A stretch of 33,466 bases of DNA from Prevotellaceae bacterium (GTDB taxonomy: Bacteria > Bacteroidota > Bacteroidia > Bacteroidales > UBA932), in contig JAITGD010000167.1 of NCBI GenBank assembly GCA_031280885.1, positions 1 to 33,466 on the forward strand, read 5' to 3'. Both the position numbers and the translations under genes were made by a program. Shown here in pieces: positions 10,741 to 33,347 of this stretch. A model generated the notes under the pieces. It ran no database searches, was not told the origin of the DNA, and saw only the letters and a list, made by a program, of their open reading frames with translations. How positions within the stretch are numbered: position 1 is the first letter of the stretch; each line of letters begins with the position of its first letter.

Positions 10741-10834
10741 TTCATAAAATTTAATTTTGATGATTATTCGTTATTCAAAAAAAAGGCGTACTTTTGGCCG
10801 TAATTAGTTTTATTTGCAATTAACGAAACAGCCA

Positions 10835-11839
10835 ATGTCCAAATGCGTTGCCATAATTTTAGCAATCTTGTTTCTGCCTTTTACAGCAAAGGCGCAGAGC
10901 GATTTTGACTTTACTCAACGCTGGTTTAATGAATCGCTATACAACCCCGCCGCTACGGGCAATAGCTTTGGTACTGACATCTTTTTGCACGGACGCGCTC
11001 AATGGATTGGGCTCGAAGGCGCGCCTACTACCGAAGCTGTATATGTGAATGCTTATTTCGAGGGGCTAAGATCGGGATTCGGGCTGGGGCTTACCGGCGA
11101 CCAGATTGGTTTTACGCACACTTACTCTTGCCGAGCGGCGTATGCTTACTTTGTCCCTACGGGTAAAGCCTCGTATATATCGTTTGGATTGTCGGCGTCG
11201 ATAGTAAGCCGCAACCGAAACGCATACGGCGCTCTGGTGGACGAACTCGACGACCCTGACTTGTTCTATGGAAACTCGTCGCACCTTACGCCCGACTTCG
11301 ACTTTGGCGTCGAATATAAAGGCCCGATAAAAATCGGCGCTTCTATCAGGCATCTTGGCACTATCCCTTCAACAGATTTCCTTGGATACGCTTACAATGT
11401 GTGGACTTACGCTTCGATGAGAATCAACGTGGCGCGTGGAATGAGCCTGGAACCGGTGGTGTCGTTTATGTATCGCGAAAAAATCAGCCGTTATGAAGCC
11501 GGCGCTATTCTGCGATTCTATCAACTTGATAGAAAAAGCGGATACGATTATAAAGACCGCTGGTGGATTGGCGCTATAAGCCGATTTCATGGGCAATTTA
11601 CCATCATGGCCGGAATGGAAATAACCAAAAACATTCGGGCTGGTTATTCCTTCGACTACGGCGCAAGCGACCTGGCGCGTATCTCCGAAAAAGGTTCTCA
11701 CGAAATATTTGTAGCCCTGAGTTTTAACCGGCTTTTCCAGAAAAAAGAATTATGCCCGGCTTTCAAAAACTCCGGCTATGATACTCGCGCTAAAAAGAAG
11801 TTTATGGATAGAATTAAATATAAATTTGAAATCTATTGA
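10835..11839 (+). CDS. Type IX secretion system membrane protein, PorP/SprF family
   Basis: RWFNESLYNPAATGNSFGTDIFLHGRAQWIGLEGAPTT; GLGLTGDQIG; position directly upstream of the gliding-motility CTD protein. Confidence 0.85.
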   Translation: MSKCVAIILAILFLPFTAKAQSDFDFTQRWFNESLYNPAATGNSFGTDIFLHGRAQWIGLEGAPTTEAVYVNAYFEGLRSGFGLGLTGDQIGFTHTYSCRAAYAYFVPTGKASYISFGLSASIVSRNRNAYGALVDELDDPDLFYGNSSHLTPDFDFGVEYKGPIKIGASIRHLGTIPSTDFLGYAYNVWTYASMRINVARGMSLEPVVSFMYREKISRYEAGAILRFYQLDRKSGYDYKDRWWIGAISRFHGQFTIMAGMEITKNIRAGYSFDYGASDLARISEKGSHEIFVALSFNRLFQKKELCPAFKNSGYDTRAKKKFMDRIKYKFEIY

Positions 11840-11906
11840 TCGGGACTGTTAGACTGTTGGACTGTTAGACTGTTAGACTGTTGGACTGTTGGACTATTGG
11901 ACTTTG
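11840..11906. repeat. GACTKTTR octamer tandem array flanked by a 19-bp direct repeat (11819-11837, 11907-11925)
   Basis: gactgttagactgttggactgttagactgttagactgttggactgttggactattggac; flanks TATAAATTTGAAA[T/C]CTATT. Confidence 0.9.
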
Positions 11907-11929
11907 TATAAATTTGAAACCTATTATAT

Positions 11930-14900
11930 ATGTTACCATTTTATTCCCCTAAAAACATGACGGCGGCAAGATTCGCCGGATTGTGCTTTTCGAGCCTATT
12001 TCTGTGGATTGCCTCACTCGACAAAGTTCATGCGCAGTGTGCTAATTTCACGGTGGAACTCGAATATGTAACTCATTCCGATTGCCAATCGAACGGAGTT
12101 ATCAAAGTGAAACTCTCCGGAGCAGATGTTGCTCAGTTGAGTAATCCCAAATTCAGCCTTAGTTCCGGCAGCCATGCGGTGCCGCTTTCCGATAACGGAG
12201 GGCTGTTCCAAAATTTGCCGCCGGGAACTTACACCGCAACAGTGCTGGCATACTGCAACAACACATTTCAGGTTACGAAAAACTCTGTGCCGATAACCGT
12301 AACCTCGTCATACGCCGTTCCAAATGTCGATGTGCTTGAACGCAACCCTTCGCTCGAATGTCTTCCCACAGGCTCGTTCAAGCTGCATCTCGCCGACGGT
12401 AAACCGCCATACAAGATCGTTATCACCTCGCCTCCCGCAGGATACGCCGGCTCCACTACATTCACCGGCCTGCCCGCAGGAGATTATATGCTCGATAATC
12501 TGACGCACGGATCATATAGCTTTTATGTGGAAGACGCTTGTCAGTATAGAATTATAAAGAACGATGGACTCGGAGTAACCAATCACAGTTACAATGTGCA
12601 AAAAACCAAAGATGCACATACTTGCCTTCCCGAAGGTCAGGTGCGGGTAACGATGAACAACGGCGCGCCGCCTTATACTATAACAGTGTCCGAATATCCT
12701 GCGGAATATGCCGGACCTTTTTCCTTTACCACTTCTTCGTCGCCTCATCTGATCGACGATTTGCCGCAGGGCAATTACAAGTTCAAGGTGCAGGATGTGT
12801 GTAGCGCTGTGGCCGATAGCTTCAATATTCGCATAGACAAAAAGCCTCTCTACTTCAGCGGCTCGCCCTCAGTAACGCCCACAAATATCTGCGACGCCGA
12901 TGGTACTATTCGCTTTACGCTGCCCGACGGAGTGCCGAAGTTCAAAGCCGAAATCGACCGTCCGGCCCCTCTGAGCGACACTACTATCATCCAAAGCAGT
13001 CCGGTGTTTAACCTTACGGGATTAATTTCCGGCGAATATCGATTCCTTATCACCGATTCATGCCATGTGGACACCGTCCGACTTACGGTGCAGGTCAATA
13101 CCGGCACTCTATCGGTATCGAACATCCGCACCGATATAACCCGAAACTGCGGCTCGCCTAACGGAGAAGTCAGCTTCAATATCAACAACGGAAAGAAGCC
13201 TTATAAGATAGAAATAAATTCAGCCACAGGTTCCACATATTCACATACCGAGCCGGCGCATAACGGCGGAAGCTATGCCCGCTACGACTTGCCTGCCGAT
13301 AGCTTTGCGCTGAAAGTTACCGACGATTGCGGAGTAATTGTCGATACTTCTTTTGTAATCAAAGCCAATGTATTTAAATCAATCAAGCTCGATTCCGTCG
13401 CTTCGCTTGGCTGCTTCGGCACGGGAGTATTCAAGATAGCAATCACCGACGGCGAACCGAACTACACTATAATCCTTACCGACGGCCCAACGAGCCACTC
13501 AGGATGGCCTTATCCCGATACCTTGGCTACCAATTTCGCAGGAGGAGCGTTCAACGATTATGTTTTAGGAGGATTGACGCCGGGTCATTATAAAGTTAAG
13601 GTAATTGACGCTTGTCTCAGCGTGTTAGAGGCCGAGTTTACTATCGATACCCTGAAAGCTGTTCAGGACGACATTCCATACAATCCCTTCGGAGATTATC
13701 TTTATCCGCCGGTAACAAATGATAATAATTGCCAGATAGTCCGCGTGCCGGTAAACAAGCTGCCATTTTATACCGAATGGAATAATAAGCCGGAGGATGT
13801 TTACGAAGTTGCCTTTTATATAAGCGACGACCCAGCTCACATTCCTTCGCCGAATTACGCTATCTTGCAATGGCGACCCGTTACACGCGACGCTAACGAT
13901 TTTATGCCCGACACACTTAGTCAAACGTACAAATATATGCGCGATAACGGAGCTTCGCTGGTGGCTGTGATTAGGCTCAAAAACGGAGGATCCTGCCCTG
14001 TGCCGGCTCCTATGGTAATCGATACCATCAAACTGCATCCGATAGAAGGATATGTTTATTCAGACCAAAATGCTTGCGATGGATTCAGGCTTGGATTCAG
14101 CCAAAATACCAACGAAAAAGGTCTGATATGCTATCCGTACAGCGTCGATTTGATGGCCGAAGACGGAACTACGCTTGTGCAAAGTCTCACAAACATTAAT
14201 TCTCCGGCGACTCAGTACTTTGCCGGCAAAATTCCCTTCGGAAAGTATTATCTCGATTTCACCGACAGCGAAGGAACCGTCTGGCGCGATAGCGTGGAAA
14301 ATCGTGTCTGGCACAGCCCGACGAGCATCAGCAATCCTCCCGGAACCAAAAATCTGCTTTGCAATTCATATACGGCGATGTTTTCCATAATTGAAATCTG
14401 TAAACCATATCAATGGAAACTCATCAACCAAAGCAACGTAGTGATAGACTCGCTTACCAATGTCAATGACGATAATATCGAAGTCGATTCTCTTGAATAC
14501 AACCATACGTACAGGCTGCTGCTTATCAGCAAAACCAACGATAGCACATATTCCCAGCCTTTCAGTTTTAATAGGGACATCCTTGCGAATTACGCAATCA
14601 ACCAAGGCGCGTCAATATGCACTCTTGGCACGGGATATATCCAGATAAACCGCACGGGAGCGTCGCAGGATCGGCTATTCCAGCCGGGTACGAAAATCAT
14701 ATATCTATCGGGGCCAACAGTTCCGGTAAACGATACCGTAGAAATCGTAAACACAGGCATAACAGAGGTCTTTCCCTTTAGCCTCGATCCCTTTACCAGA
14801 AATTACGACACCATCGCGCCGGGGATATACACCTTCAAAGTTATTGACGACTGCGCTCTGGAACATTCTCTTTCGATTGACTTCAAGGTCTATTCGTATG

Positions 14901-17713
14901 ATACGCTAACTTACATCGCATCGCCCGACTGCGAGCGCGGCACAACGGTCATTCCAAACACAACGCTATCGTATTTCAATGCCGGCGACGCCTCCGGCAG
15001 CGTCCGCTATACCATAGTGTCGGGGCCTACCGACGTCGGCTTGCGCATCGGAAACGGAGGCAACTTCCTTTTGAAGGTTTCGGGCGATTATATCATCGAA
15101 ATGAGTACCTTCGACGGTTCGCAACACTGTCCGCAGGATTCATTCAGCATCTCCTTCAAACTCCAAAAAGTAAGGCTCGACCTTGATGAAAAGAAATCAT
15201 ACATCTGCGGTTCTACGGGATACATCGAAGTGCAGGCTACGGAAGGAAGCGGAAACTATACCTACGATCTGTATGATGATAATGTAGCGCCGGGCCATTT
15301 AGTAGAAAGCAACACCACAGGAATATTCAATTACGGAAGACTCGGCGAAACATATATGATTTATGTTACCGACAATCTGTGCGGACGTTCCTTCCCCGAC
15401 TCTATCACCATGATCGACCTGCGCGATAAGATCGTCTCGGCCTCCACCGACGTCTGCGTCGGGCATCAAATCAGCCTTAGCTCTATGCCCGTAAGCGATA
15501 CTTATATGTGGACGGGGCCTAACGGATTCGTCTCGCACGCTAAGGACACAATCTTCGGGCCGGCAACTATGGCCGATTCGGGCTTATATACCATCACCGT
15601 TAAGCCAAAGGGATGCAGCATCCTTAATCAGGATGTTACTATCAATGTATATCAACCCGAAGAACCGAAAATCGACGACACCATAATAGTCTGCATCAAC
15701 ACTCCGACCGAGCAGCTCAACGCCATACCCCTGCCCGGGCATATAGTGCAATGGTTCGATAAAGATACCATAGCGCTGCCCGCCGCCCCGATTCCATCGA
15801 GAGCAAATGCGCCCGACACTACGACGTACTACGTCAAGCAATCGAATTACATAAACTGCGAGAGCGCCTTGCGGCAAGTGGTTTTCATCGTAGAGCAATT
15901 GCCCGATACGGTGGCGGTGGCTTTCGCCGGCGATATTTGCCGAGGTCAAAAGCCGCTTGTTATGATACCCGACGTTTATCGCGATTATGTTTACAGAATC
16001 TACGACAGCGGAGGCCGGCTTGCCGGAGCCGACACCGCACGCTCCGACACGATTACCATAGCAGGCGATTTCCCGCTGATAGCTTCGGAAATCTATAGCG
16101 TCGAAGTAGAAACTCGTCATGCTTGCGTAGCCTCGCAACGCTCGCAGGTTCCGGTGAAAGTAGTACATCCGCCTGCGCCGCCGGTTTACCCCGTATTGCA
16201 CTGCCACAACGCCGCCGGAGTTCCGCCTCTGCGCGCCGATTCCACCGCCGGAAATCGCTTGCAATGGTTAGACCTCGACGGACGAACTCATCTAAACTCA
16301 GCACCCACGCCGCCTACCAACGTGGTGGGTACTTTCACGTACAGCGTGGTGCAAATCGACACCCTGCTCGGATGCTACGGCGATACGGCCAACGTGCAGG
16401 TAACGATAGCCGCGCTGCCCGATACGCAGATCGACCCGCAGGCTCCCGACATTTGCCGCCGCACAGCCCCGCATATCATCATTAATACGACCAATAATCT
16501 GTATGGATACACAGTCTTCGACCGTCAGGGCGACACTATCATCCACACTCTTTTTGCCGATGGTTCTCCTTTGGATATGTATAATCCGAACTACATTCTT
16601 CAGGCCGACGACGAAGTGTATATTAAGGTAATCGACCATAATCAATGCGTATCGCCCGACAGCGCTCCGGTACCCATTACGGTGATAATTCCGCCTGTGC
16701 CGGAGGTCTTCGATACCTCGTACTGCCTCTACGCTTCGGCCAATCCGCTACGCGCTACGCCATCCGCAGGATACTATATTCAATGGTATGGCCTCGATAA
16801 GCGTCCGCTCACAAGCCCTCCCATACCGCCGACTTCTCCTTTGGATACCATAACTTACATGATTTCGCAAAGGCATAACACGCTTCATTGCGAAAGCGAT
16901 ACTCTGGAGGCTACGGTGCGAATCATGCCTTTGCCCGATACGGTGAGCATGGTGCGTGCGGCAGACATTTGCCCGGGACAGTATCCGACCTTCCGCATCC
17001 CGCAAACCGACGCCGGATATATTTATAATGTATATTCCGCATCGGGACGTATTGCCGCCACAGGCGTCGGCAACGGAGGCGAACTTCTGCTGAGGGGCGA
17101 CGAACAGCTCTTCATCCCCATAAGTTATTATTATGTAGAGGTGGTGAATCTGAACGATTGCGCTTCGGAACATCGTTCCACAGTGTCGGTAGCGGTGGTG
17201 AACAACGTTTATATCGAACCGGAGAGGATTCCTCGCTACGAGCGCGAGATACCATACAGCGTCCAGCTTATCACCAACGGAGTATCGCCCTACGAGTTTT
17301 CGTTACGCACTCCTTTGCCCAGCGGCTTCGACCTAAGTACGCAAGGATTGATAACGGGTTCGGCGCCACGCAATGGTAAAATCGACCCGGTGCCTTTTGT
17401 CGTCCAAGTTATCGACGCCGAAGGTTGCATTGCCGAAAGGGAGTATCTGCTCGAAAGCGACATCTTCATCCCGCAGGTATTCACCCCCAACGGCGACGGT
17501 AAAAACGACGTCTTTATGAAAGGTCGCCGCTTGGTAATCTTCGACCGCCTCGGCATAAAAGTCTTTGAAGGCGACGACGGCTGGGACGGTACCTACCGCG
17601 GCGGACAGCCCGCTCCTCCGGATACTTATTTCTACCTCCTTTTTTACGAGGACGAAAATCTTAATACCGAAGGACGAAAAAAAGGTTACATCACGCTTAT
17701 CCGTAGAAAGTGA
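11930..17713 (+). CDS. Giant SprB-like repeat protein with gliding motility-associated C-terminal (T9SS type B) domain
   Basis: Signal sequence; multiple DGxPPYxIxI / LPPGxYxxxVxDxC repeats; C-terminus IPQVFTPNGDGKNDVF...IFDRLGIKVFEGDDGWDGTYRGGQPAPPDTYFYLLFYED. Confidence 0.9.
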   Translation: MLPFYSPKNMTAARFAGLCFSSLFLWIASLDKVHAQCANFTVELEYVTHSDCQSNGVIKVKLSGADVAQLSNPKFSLSSGSHAVPLSDNGGLFQNLPPGTYTATVLAYCNNTFQVTKNSVPITVTSSYAVPNVDVLERNPSLECLPTGSFKLHLADGKPPYKIVITSPPAGYAGSTTFTGLPAGDYMLDNLTHGSYSFYVEDACQYRIIKNDGLGVTNHSYNVQKTKDAHTCLPEGQVRVTMNNGAPPYTITVSEYPAEYAGPFSFTTSSSPHLIDDLPQGNYKFKVQDVCSAVADSFNIRIDKKPLYFSGSPSVTPTNICDADGTIRFTLPDGVPKFKAEIDRPAPLSDTTIIQSSPVFNLTGLISGEYRFLITDSCHVDTVRLTVQVNTGTLSVSNIRTDITRNCGSPNGEVSFNINNGKKPYKIEINSATGSTYSHTEPAHNGGSYARYDLPADSFALKVTDDCGVIVDTSFVIKANVFKSIKLDSVASLGCFGTGVFKIAITDGEPNYTIILTDGPTSHSGWPYPDTLATNFAGGAFNDYVLGGLTPGHYKVKVIDACLSVLEAEFTIDTLKAVQDDIPYNPFGDYLYPPVTNDNNCQIVRVPVNKLPFYTEWNNKPEDVYEVAFYISDDPAHIPSPNYAILQWRPVTRDANDFMPDTLSQTYKYMRDNGASLVAVIRLKNGGSCPVPAPMVIDTIKLHPIEGYVYSDQNACDGFRLGFSQNTNEKGLICYPYSVDLMAEDGTTLVQSLTNINSPATQYFAGKIPFGKYYLDFTDSEGTVWRDSVENRVWHSPTSISNPPGTKNLLCNSYTAMFSIIEICKPYQWKLINQSNVVIDSLTNVNDDNIEVDSLEYNHTYRLLLISKTNDSTYSQPFSFNRDILANYAINQGASICTLGTGYIQINRTGASQDRLFQPGTKIIYLSGPTVPVNDTVEIVNTGITEVFPFSLDPFTRNYDTIAPGIYTFKVIDDCALEHSLSIDFKVYSYDTLTYIASPDCERGTTVIPNTTLSYFNAGDASGSVRYTIVSGPTDVGLRIGNGGNFLLKVSGDYIIEMSTFDGSQHCPQDSFSISFKLQKVRLDLDEKKSYICGSTGYIEVQATEGSGNYTYDLYDDNVAPGHLVESNTTGIFNYGRLGETYMIYVTDNLCGRSFPDSITMIDLRDKIVSASTDVCVGHQISLSSMPVSDTYMWTGPNGFVSHAKDTIFGPATMADSGLYTITVKPKGCSILNQDVTINVYQPEEPKIDDTIIVCINTPTEQLNAIPLPGHIVQWFDKDTIALPAAPIPSRANAPDTTTYYVKQSNYINCESALRQVVFIVEQLPDTVAVAFAGDICRGQKPLVMIPDVYRDYVYRIYDSGGRLAGADTARSDTITIAGDFPLIASEIYSVEVETRHACVASQRSQVPVKVVHPPAPPVYPVLHCHNAAGVPPLRADSTAGNRLQWLDLDGRTHLNSAPTPPTNVVGTFTYSVVQIDTLLGCYGDTANVQVTIAALPDTQIDPQAPDICRRTAPHIIINTTNNLYGYTVFDRQGDTIIHTLFADGSPLDMYNPNYILQADDEVYIKVIDHNQCVSPDSAPVPITVIIPPVPEVFDTSYCLYASANPLRATPSAGYYIQWYGLDKRPLTSPPIPPTSPLDTITYMISQRHNTLHCESDTLEATVRIMPLPDTVSMVRAADICPGQYPTFRIPQTDAGYIYNVYSASGRIAATGVGNGGELLLRGDEQLFIPISYYYVEVVNLNDCASEHRSTVSVAVVNNVYIEPERIPRYEREIPYSVQLITNGVSPYEFSLRTPLPSGFDLSTQGLITGSAPRNGKIDPVPFVVQVIDAEGCIAEREYLLESDIFIPQVFTPNGDGKNDVFMKGRRLVIFDRLGIKVFEGDDGWDGTYRGGQPAPPDTYFYLLFYEDENLNTEGRKKGYITLIRRK

Positions 17714-18267
17714 GTATTGCAGAGAGCCAAGATAGCAAGAACCAAGAGCCAGGACTATTTGACTGTCCGGAAGTCTTGGCTCTTGGTTCTTGTAATCATG
17801 GCTCCAAAGTCTTTCTTTCCCTCGGAAGCAATTCCGGCGACAGCCTGAGTACACTGTGCCGAGCTGCAACAGATATAGAAAAGTCTATCGGAAAGATTAA
17901 GGCCAAATCGTCTATATACGAATCGGAGCCGTGGGGATTCAAAGCCGAACAGAATTTTCTAAACGAGGTTCTGGAAATTGAAACCTCCCTGACTCCCGAA
18001 GAATTACTGCACAGAATCCACGCAATCGAAGCAGCACACGGACGAATCCGTACAGATTCGAGAGAATATTCCTCGAGAACTCTCGACGTCGATATAATCT
18101 TCTACGGCGACCTTGTGCTGGAAAGTCCCACGTTAGTCATCCCGCATCCGCTGATGCACCAACGTCTTTTTGTGCTCCGTCCCTTAGCCGAAATCGCTCC
18201 CGATTTGATTCACCCGATATTAAAACGCTCAATTAAAGAACTGCTCGAAACTTATGTGTGTGTTTAG
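17710..18267 (+). CDS. folK: 2-amino-4-hydroxy-6-hydroxymethyldihydropteridine pyrophosphokinase (HPPK); GTG start or internal TTG
   Basis: VFLSLGSNSGDS, SSIYESEPWGF, NFLNEVLEIET, RTLDVDIIFYGD, IPHPLMHQRLFVLRPLAEIAPD. Confidence 0.88.
   Translation: MSIAESQDSKNQEPGLFDCPEVLALGSCNHGSKVFLSLGSNSGDSLSTLCRAATDIEKSIGKIKAKSSIYESEPWGFKAEQNFLNEVLEIETSLTPEELLHRIHAIEAAHGRIRTDSREYSSRTLDVDIIFYGDLVLESPTLVIPHPLMHQRLFVLRPLAEIAPDLIHPILKRSIKELLETYVCV
17720..17815. repeat. Inverted repeat of the dispersed 'TGGCTCTTGGTTCTTG' arm within the predicted folK N-terminal coding region
   Basis: CAAGAACCAAGAGCCA on the left and exact reverse complement TGGCTCTTGGTTCTTG on the right. Confidence 0.85.
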
Positions 18268-18478: not shown

Positions 18479-19180
18479 ATGGATGAGGAACAGGATTTAG
18501 ATCCGGGAATAAAATCGAACATAGTGAACATTCTGCGCGATAAATCAAGCGTAAAACAGAAGGTTTACGACAATACTTTTGAGACCTTTTCGAGCCTGAA
18601 AGAGGTGTTGCATGAACTGATAAACGAAATAAACGACGACCTGACCGGCTCCGACCGCCGTATCAAATTGGATTATCGCGATAGAGGAAAATTTGAAGCC
18701 GAAGCTAAAGTTGCCGAAGATACTCTGATTTTTAGTATGCACTCGAATGTGTTCGAGTTCGACCGCGAACATTCCGTCTGGAAAACTTCATACGTAAAGG
18801 CAAATAAACTAAATTCATACTGCGGTATTATTTATATCTACAATTTCCTGGCCGATTCGTTCAAATACAATCGCGCCAATGATTTGGGATATTTAATCGG
18901 ACGTATTTTTATCAACAGAGAAATGCACTTCTTTGTGGAAGGTAAACGTCAGATGAATTATGTAAACGATTTCGGCTCGCAGATTATCAACGTAAATGAA
19001 CTGCGTAAAATCGTAGAAAAGACTATTCTGTATGCTCTGGATTTCGACCTGCTGACACCTCCATACGATACAGTGAAAATAGCCACCGTCGAACAAGTCA
19101 ATACCAAGATAGAAAGCGCCAAACTCCAAACCGGCAAACGTCTTGGATTCAGATTTAACTCAGATGATGTATTTGAATAG
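18479..19180 (+). CDS. Conserved hypothetical protein (233 aa)
   Basis: Long ORF with clear coding composition, promoter box upstream; family not named with confidence. Confidence 0.7.
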   Translation: MDEEQDLDPGIKSNIVNILRDKSSVKQKVYDNTFETFSSLKEVLHELINEINDDLTGSDRRIKLDYRDRGKFEAEAKVAEDTLIFSMHSNVFEFDREHSVWKTSYVKANKLNSYCGIIYIYNFLADSFKYNRANDLGYLIGRIFINREMHFFVEGKRQMNYVNDFGSQIINVNELRKIVEKTILYALDFDLLTPPYDTVKIATVEQVNTKIESAKLQTGKRLGFRFNSDDVFE

Positions 19181-19404
19181 ACTATTAGACTGTTGGACTT
19201 TTGTCCGGACTTTTGGACTGTTAGACTGTTGGACTGTTAGACTGTTGGACTTTCGTCCGGACTGTTGGACTGTTAGACTGTTGGACGTCTTGATAGTCCA
19301 AATGTCTAAAAGTCCGGACGAAAGTCCAAAAGTCCAAATGTCCAACAGTCTAAAAGTCCGGACAAAAGTCCAAAAGTCTAACAGTCTAACAGTCTAACAG
19401 TCCA
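19178..19404. repeat. Large imperfect inverted repeat built from octamers (forward GACTKTTR arm, reverse YAAMAGTC arm) with paired GTCCGGAC blocks
   Basis: Left TTTTGTCCGGAC...TTTCGTCCGGAC mirrored by right GTCCGGACGAAA...GTCCGGACAAAA. Confidence 0.9.
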
Positions 19405-19408
19405 AAAA

Positions 19409-32856: not shown

Positions 32857-33090
32857 GTGGACGGTTGGACGGTTGGACGGTTGGACATTTAGACAGGACT
32901 TTTGGACATTTGGACTGTTGGACTGTTCCTTTGGACTGTTGGACTGTTCCTTTGGACTTTTGGACTGTTCCTTTGGACTTTTGGACTGTTCCTTTGGACT
33001 TTTGGACTTTTGGACTTTTGGACTGTTGGGTTTCTTTGGATGAAAATTAGCTTACGATGGACTGTTGGACTGTTGGACATTTGGACTGTT
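32857..33090. repeat. Octamer array with 21-bp higher-order unit GGACTKTTGGACTGTTCCTTT (x4) and a duplicated 34-bp block (33018-33051, 33081-33114)
   Basis: GTTCC motif spaced exactly 21 bp four times (CC at 32928, 32949, 32970, 32991). Confidence 0.88.
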
Positions 33091-33116
33091 GGGTTTCTTT
33101 GGATGAAAATTAGCCT

Positions 33117-33347
33117 ACAAATTCCTTTTGTGAGGTTACAAATTCCTTTTGTAAGGTTACAAAACACTTTTGTAAGGTTACAAATCCTTTTTGTAAGGTT
33201 ACAAAATGCTTTTGTAAGATTACAAAATGCTTTTGTAAGGTTACAAATCCCTTTTGTAAGGTCGCAAAACGCTTTTGTGAGATGACAAAACGCTTTTGTA
33301 AGATGACAAAACGCTTTTGTGAGATGACAAATCCTTTTTGTGAGGTC
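33117..33347. repeat. Eleven 21-bp units ACAAANNNCTTTTGTRAGRTK with internal ACAAAA...TTTTGT dyad
   Basis: 11 consecutive 21-bp units counted by eye. Confidence 0.92.

Follow-up and report, generated by a model that had tools for sequence, protein, structure and literature searches.

What produced the short direct repeat that brackets an octamer array downstream of porP, and does it reveal how such arrays enter a genome? In the stretch of DNA analysed here (the window; 33,466 nucleotides from a Prevotellaceae bacterium), the last bases of porP recur on the far side of an array of GACTNTTN units, just ahead of a large type IX secretion cargo gene. A preliminary description, made from the window alone, took this arrangement for a target-site duplication or a templated insertion and proposed that it shows how the arrays arrive. 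Here we ask whether the repeat is genuine, which copy came first and what process best accounts for the second.

The repeat pair itself is as first described. The left copy, TATAAATTTGAAATCTATT, and the right copy, TATAAATTTGAAACCTATT, agree at 18 of 19 positions and are offset by 88 bp, and between them TRF calls an octamer array of 7.6 copies at 11843–11903 (Table 1). As proposed, the left copy encodes the last residues of PorP: it is in frame (…KYKFEIY) and consists of the last six porP codons and the first base of the TGA stop codon at 11837–11839. Identity stops cleanly at both ends (A/G before, G/A after), beyond its 19 bases the right copy is followed directly by unique sequence, and no microhomology was found at either junction. 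With one position left free, the 19-mer has just two copies in the 2.66-Mb assembly, all other matches having at least three mismatches, which rules it out as a dispersed motif. We also mispaired left and right array flanks, using 20 random pairings per cluster, and scores this high arose in about 0.05 pairs per 78, compared with 2 of the 78 real clusters; the second real high scorer, C187, is a 63-bp/21-bp minisatellite. Given the genome-wide uniqueness of the 19-mer and the rarity of such scores in mispaired flanks, the duplication is genuine and beyond chance.

Table 1 Features at the porP–sprB-like junction (window coordinates).
Feature	Position	Strand	Basis and remarks
porP (type IX secretion, PorP/SprF family)	10814..11839	+	Pfam PF11751, E 1.4e-45; orthologues in relatives
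Left 19-bp copy	11819..11837	+	In frame; F-x-I-Y-stop end conserved in G009, G010 and G002; read as ancestral
69-bp spacer	11838..11906	+	Rest of stop codon, TCGG, then about eight GACTNTTN octamers in a single arm; sequence and TRF
Right 19-bp copy	11907..11925	+	18/19 identical; read as derived; nothing similar ahead of the sprB-like orthologue in G002 or G010
TAAATTTG, candidate -7 promoter box (TAnnTTTG) of next gene	11909..11916	+	Sequence; 18/47 edges versus 1.9 expected
sprB-like type IX secretion cargo gene	11930..17713	+	Ig_7 and CHU_C domains; SprB repeat below cut-off only

The direction of the duplication can be read from related species. PorP orthologues in three of them (G009, G010 and G002) end in F-x-I-Y with a stop directly after, and this conservation marks the left copy, together with its stop codon, as ancestral and as the original of the pair. 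The reverse order, with an ancestral right copy and a derived porP end, is ruled out by the conserved PorP C termini, and the right copy is also without any match upstream of the sprB-like orthologues. Moreover, the PorP stop is followed by TCGGGAC here and by the similar TCCGGAC in G009, a resemblance that weakly suggests that the bases between the stop and the array are ancestral as well. The gene on the other side was earlier labelled sprB; its SprB-repeat match is only sub-threshold, and it carries Ig_7 and a CHU_C type IX secretion signal. Its annotated start is the ATG at 11930, and the ATG at 11957 opens a signal-peptide-like sequence. Beyond it, at 17710–17800, the open reading frame (ORF) called for HPPK has a CCAAGAGCC/GGCTCTTGG-type inverted repeat at its beginning, and the true HPPK start may therefore lie further inside.

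The array belongs to a large family in this genome. A 20-base array pattern has 798 matches here and none for the reversed control, and it is essentially absent from 60 relatives (12 of the same genus). Only G002 has it and there, among the matches listed, on one contig, C178 (L098). The repeats on C178 match those on many contigs of the window's genome (G000) at 95–100% identity, often where a contig ends, so that C178 was probably misbinned and comes from the window's species; having nothing but repeats in common with G000, it offers no orthologous site and was dropped as a strain-level comparison. In 811 kb sampled as 60 stretches, selected partly for carrying arrays, we found 85 array clusters, 78 of them with both flanks. 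All 31 clusters with two orientations run plus then minus and form long hairpins (the cluster at about 19178–19406 folds at -81 kcal/mol, z = -16.4), whereas the porP array is single-armed, in plus orientation and without a fold. Short GACTNTTN arrays also occur in many unrelated genomes (L119–L221), among the matches listed mostly in Bacteroidota but also in Deltaproteobacteria, Planctomycetes, Paenibacillus, others and nine viral contigs. Clusters in these other organisms are plus–minus once and minus–plus four times among the matches listed, so the plus-then-minus pairing is no rule outside this genome. Our literature searches turned up no description of octamer arrays in Bacteroidota. Separately, the window (32857–33346) and another contig (L094:4878–5250) carry 63-bp higher-order units made of 21-bp repeats, in which octamer-like sequence is mixed with other sequence (32909–33118 and on L094).

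Array placement is precise: the arrays fit closely into the gaps between stop codons and promoter boxes. A gene 3′ end lies within 60 bases of an outer array edge (the 5′ end of GACTNTT) in 55 cases and of an inner edge in 6, with genes taken as longest-ORF calls rather than curated models. At 39 of the 55 outer-edge gene ends the stop codon is inside the array, supplied mostly by the TAG of TTTAGACT or the TGA of TGACT (for example at window positions 18267, 19180 and 31138). Of 47 array edges that face a gene start, 18 have a TAnnTTTG box beside them, where shuffling predicts 1.9, and many of these boxes are 1–15 bases off the array (for example L042:6660 and L094:16197).

The right copy at porP contains such a box. 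TAnnTTTG is the -7 consensus of the Bacteroidota sigma factor, with TTTG near -33 (PMC7366714; the -7 box also in PMC9723704), and the candidate box TAAATTTG sits 3 bases from the array. A TTG lies 17 bases upstream of it, but this match to the -33 part carries no weight because the array automatically supplies a TTG every 8 bases. From its sequence, the right copy may be the promoter from which the next gene is transcribed; if used, it would start transcription around 11921–11924 and give a leader of about 35 bases to the ATG at 11957. A TAnnTTTG box occurs within the last 30 bases of just 8 of 566 sampled ORFs, which makes porP unusual in having one to duplicate.

Other gene ends are also repeated beside arrays. 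The last 14 bases of upp (Pfam UPRTase; L073:15836) recur 58 bp on, with array units in register, the last 21 bases of metH (L075:18214) are present in four tandem copies with array units, and at C39 a 37-bp stretch flanks an array arm in the same way. Neighbouring sequence is thus repeated beside array units at porP, upp, metH and C39; the second copy runs on into array units at upp and metH, but not at porP. On their structure, the upp and metH repeats are tandem duplications, and because they include array units they point to local duplication during array growth. Such copies were found at 3 of 60 gene ends beside arrays, and some gene ends without arrays have downstream repeats as well. 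At other arrays, where the preliminary description suggested looking for comparable flank duplications, these gene ends are repeated in tandem; a clear flush pair was not seen again.

We favour, with a probability of roughly 0.6, a local origin of the 19-bp pair, in which slippage or template switching duplicated the 3′ end of porP as the array grew. In this scheme, the octamer array would grow between porP and the next gene; during replication the new strand would slip back, or switch template, to just ahead of the porP stop, copy 19 bases and then rejoin beyond the array. An equivalent order would start with a small tandem duplication, the spacer of which later expanded as octamers. Both the slippage or template-switch step and the order of events are our inference. 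Slippage in one step would be insufficient without a second switch, because the right copy enters unique sequence and the junctions are without microhomology. The right copy would then have been retained, possibly since TAAATTTG acts as a -7 promoter box right against the array.

A first alternative is that the junction is a rearrangement scar, at which porP and the sprB-like gene were newly joined in this lineage and the porP end and array units served as repair filler. In keeping with this, the two genes sit beside other neighbours in all relatives examined: downstream of porP there is an HU-like gene in G003, G004, G005 and G011 (its complete sequence being read in G004), and unrelated repeats take that place in G002 and G009; upstream of the sprB-like gene, G002 and G010 have other genes. 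The HU gene, 3′ of porP in those four congeners, likewise has a new upstream neighbour here, and in G002 and G010, too, a gene other than porP lies upstream of it. However, gene order varies at other array junctions as well, which leaves nothing special in the new porP–sprB adjacency: for eleven other junctions, a chimeric protein query over the genus returned, among the matches listed, no case of both flanking genes together. We consider a scar unlikely. The porP–sprB junction was not found in any relative examined, and so there is no empty junction among them; nor did the relatives examined show a copy of their own porP end downstream of porP, or of the window 19-mer. Relatives bearing the duplication without an array, which the preliminary description had named as one of the cases that would refute its reading, were likewise not found. 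Downstream of porP (L011, L021 and L023), congeners bear other short repeats, of the CACGAATTA type in G009 and the TGATTTnnGGATGATT type in G002, and G012 has AATTATG heptamers there, a pattern that looks like a separate repeat family after porP in each species.

Target-site duplication, the first of the original proposals, would have an array block enter a staggered cut in the porP end, with repair doubling the 19 bases. The geometry suits it, with the array flush against the right copy and direct repeats of exact length on both sides, and the array units at porP resemble those elsewhere in the genome. The reading frame does not. The implied pre-insertion join, the left copy followed by ATATATG, reads past the stop for eleven more residues (…EIYYICYHFIPLKT-stop), so that insertion with duplication needs a PorP ancestor without its conserved stop, restored by the insert at the same codon. 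The post-stop TCGGGAC, being like the TCCGGAC of G009, is in addition probably outside any insert, and none of the 77 other clusters has a comparable flush pair, bar the one minisatellite. With an ancestral PorP stop, no flush pairs as a rule and tandem repeats at the other gene ends, this explanation is disfavoured, and we regard it as quite unlikely; a templated insertion at the porP junction is possible.

The same survey bears on the wider claim that flanking duplication is the general route by which arrays enter the genome. A clear flush bracketing pair is present at only 1 of 78 clusters, which comes most of the way to the outcome, no flank duplication at any other array, that had been named in advance as speaking against a general mechanism. 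The next score rank is weakly enriched (4 clusters scoring at least 11, porP included, versus 0.7 expected), and the flank matches of that rank are partly promoter-like sequence. We rate as improbable a dedicated copy-and-insert spread of octamer arrays that duplicates its target, with porP as a recent insertion whose 19-bp copies have not yet eroded; were it true, the gene downstream would acquire a new promoter in the process. Finally, that the copies have no common origin, the right one being an independent promoter sequence with a chance likeness to the porP end, is hardly credible: the right copy does hold the promoter-type TAAATTTG, A+T-rich promoter sequences look alike and array C152 shows a 13/14 match between two promoter-like flanks, but 18 positions match here, 10 of them among the 11 not covered by the 8-base box, and neither the rest of the assembly nor the mispaired flanks readily yield such a match.

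The preferred reading, local duplication during array growth, can be set against known systems. Replication slippage and template-switch tandem duplication likewise leave local direct copies beside a repeat tract; at porP the right copy differs in being cut at 19 bases with no array units after it. Target-site duplications of transposons likewise consist of a short direct repeat that abuts a block on either side, whereas here there are no terminal inverted repeats and no fixed element, the pattern does not recur at other arrays, and the pre-insertion reading frame disagrees with the relatives. As for the arrays, the heptamer repeats found between genes in Xanthomonas (GGGAATC) and Nostoc (GGGGAYT) have their sense strand at stop codons or across them and their antisense strand upstream of genes, and form convergent inverted pairs; in two Xanthomonas species, 90% of the repeats are located between the same genes (PMC4692102). 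The octamer arrays are also intergenic, in sense orientation at stop codons and in convergent pairs; they differ in having a unit of 8 bases that is not G4-forming and, from the Xanthomonas repeats, in being nearly absent from congeners. Species-restricted bacterial satellites derived from heptamers or octamers (PMC6749651) resemble them in the multiplication of one short unit through a single species' genome, with other unit sequences; the exact fit to stop codons and promoter boxes that we found in the octamer arrays has no counterpart in the part of PMC6749651 used here. The arrays belong with these Xanthomonas/Nostoc-type and satellite short repeats, as a new member.

How short repeat arrays spread through bacterial intergenic space is poorly understood. 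The porP duplication alone is a small local event. Together with the upp and metH ends, it suggests that sequence next to an array is copied too as the array grows, and such growth could by chance relocate promoter elements, in a genome where hundreds of array units, absent from congeners, are packed between stop codons and promoter boxes.
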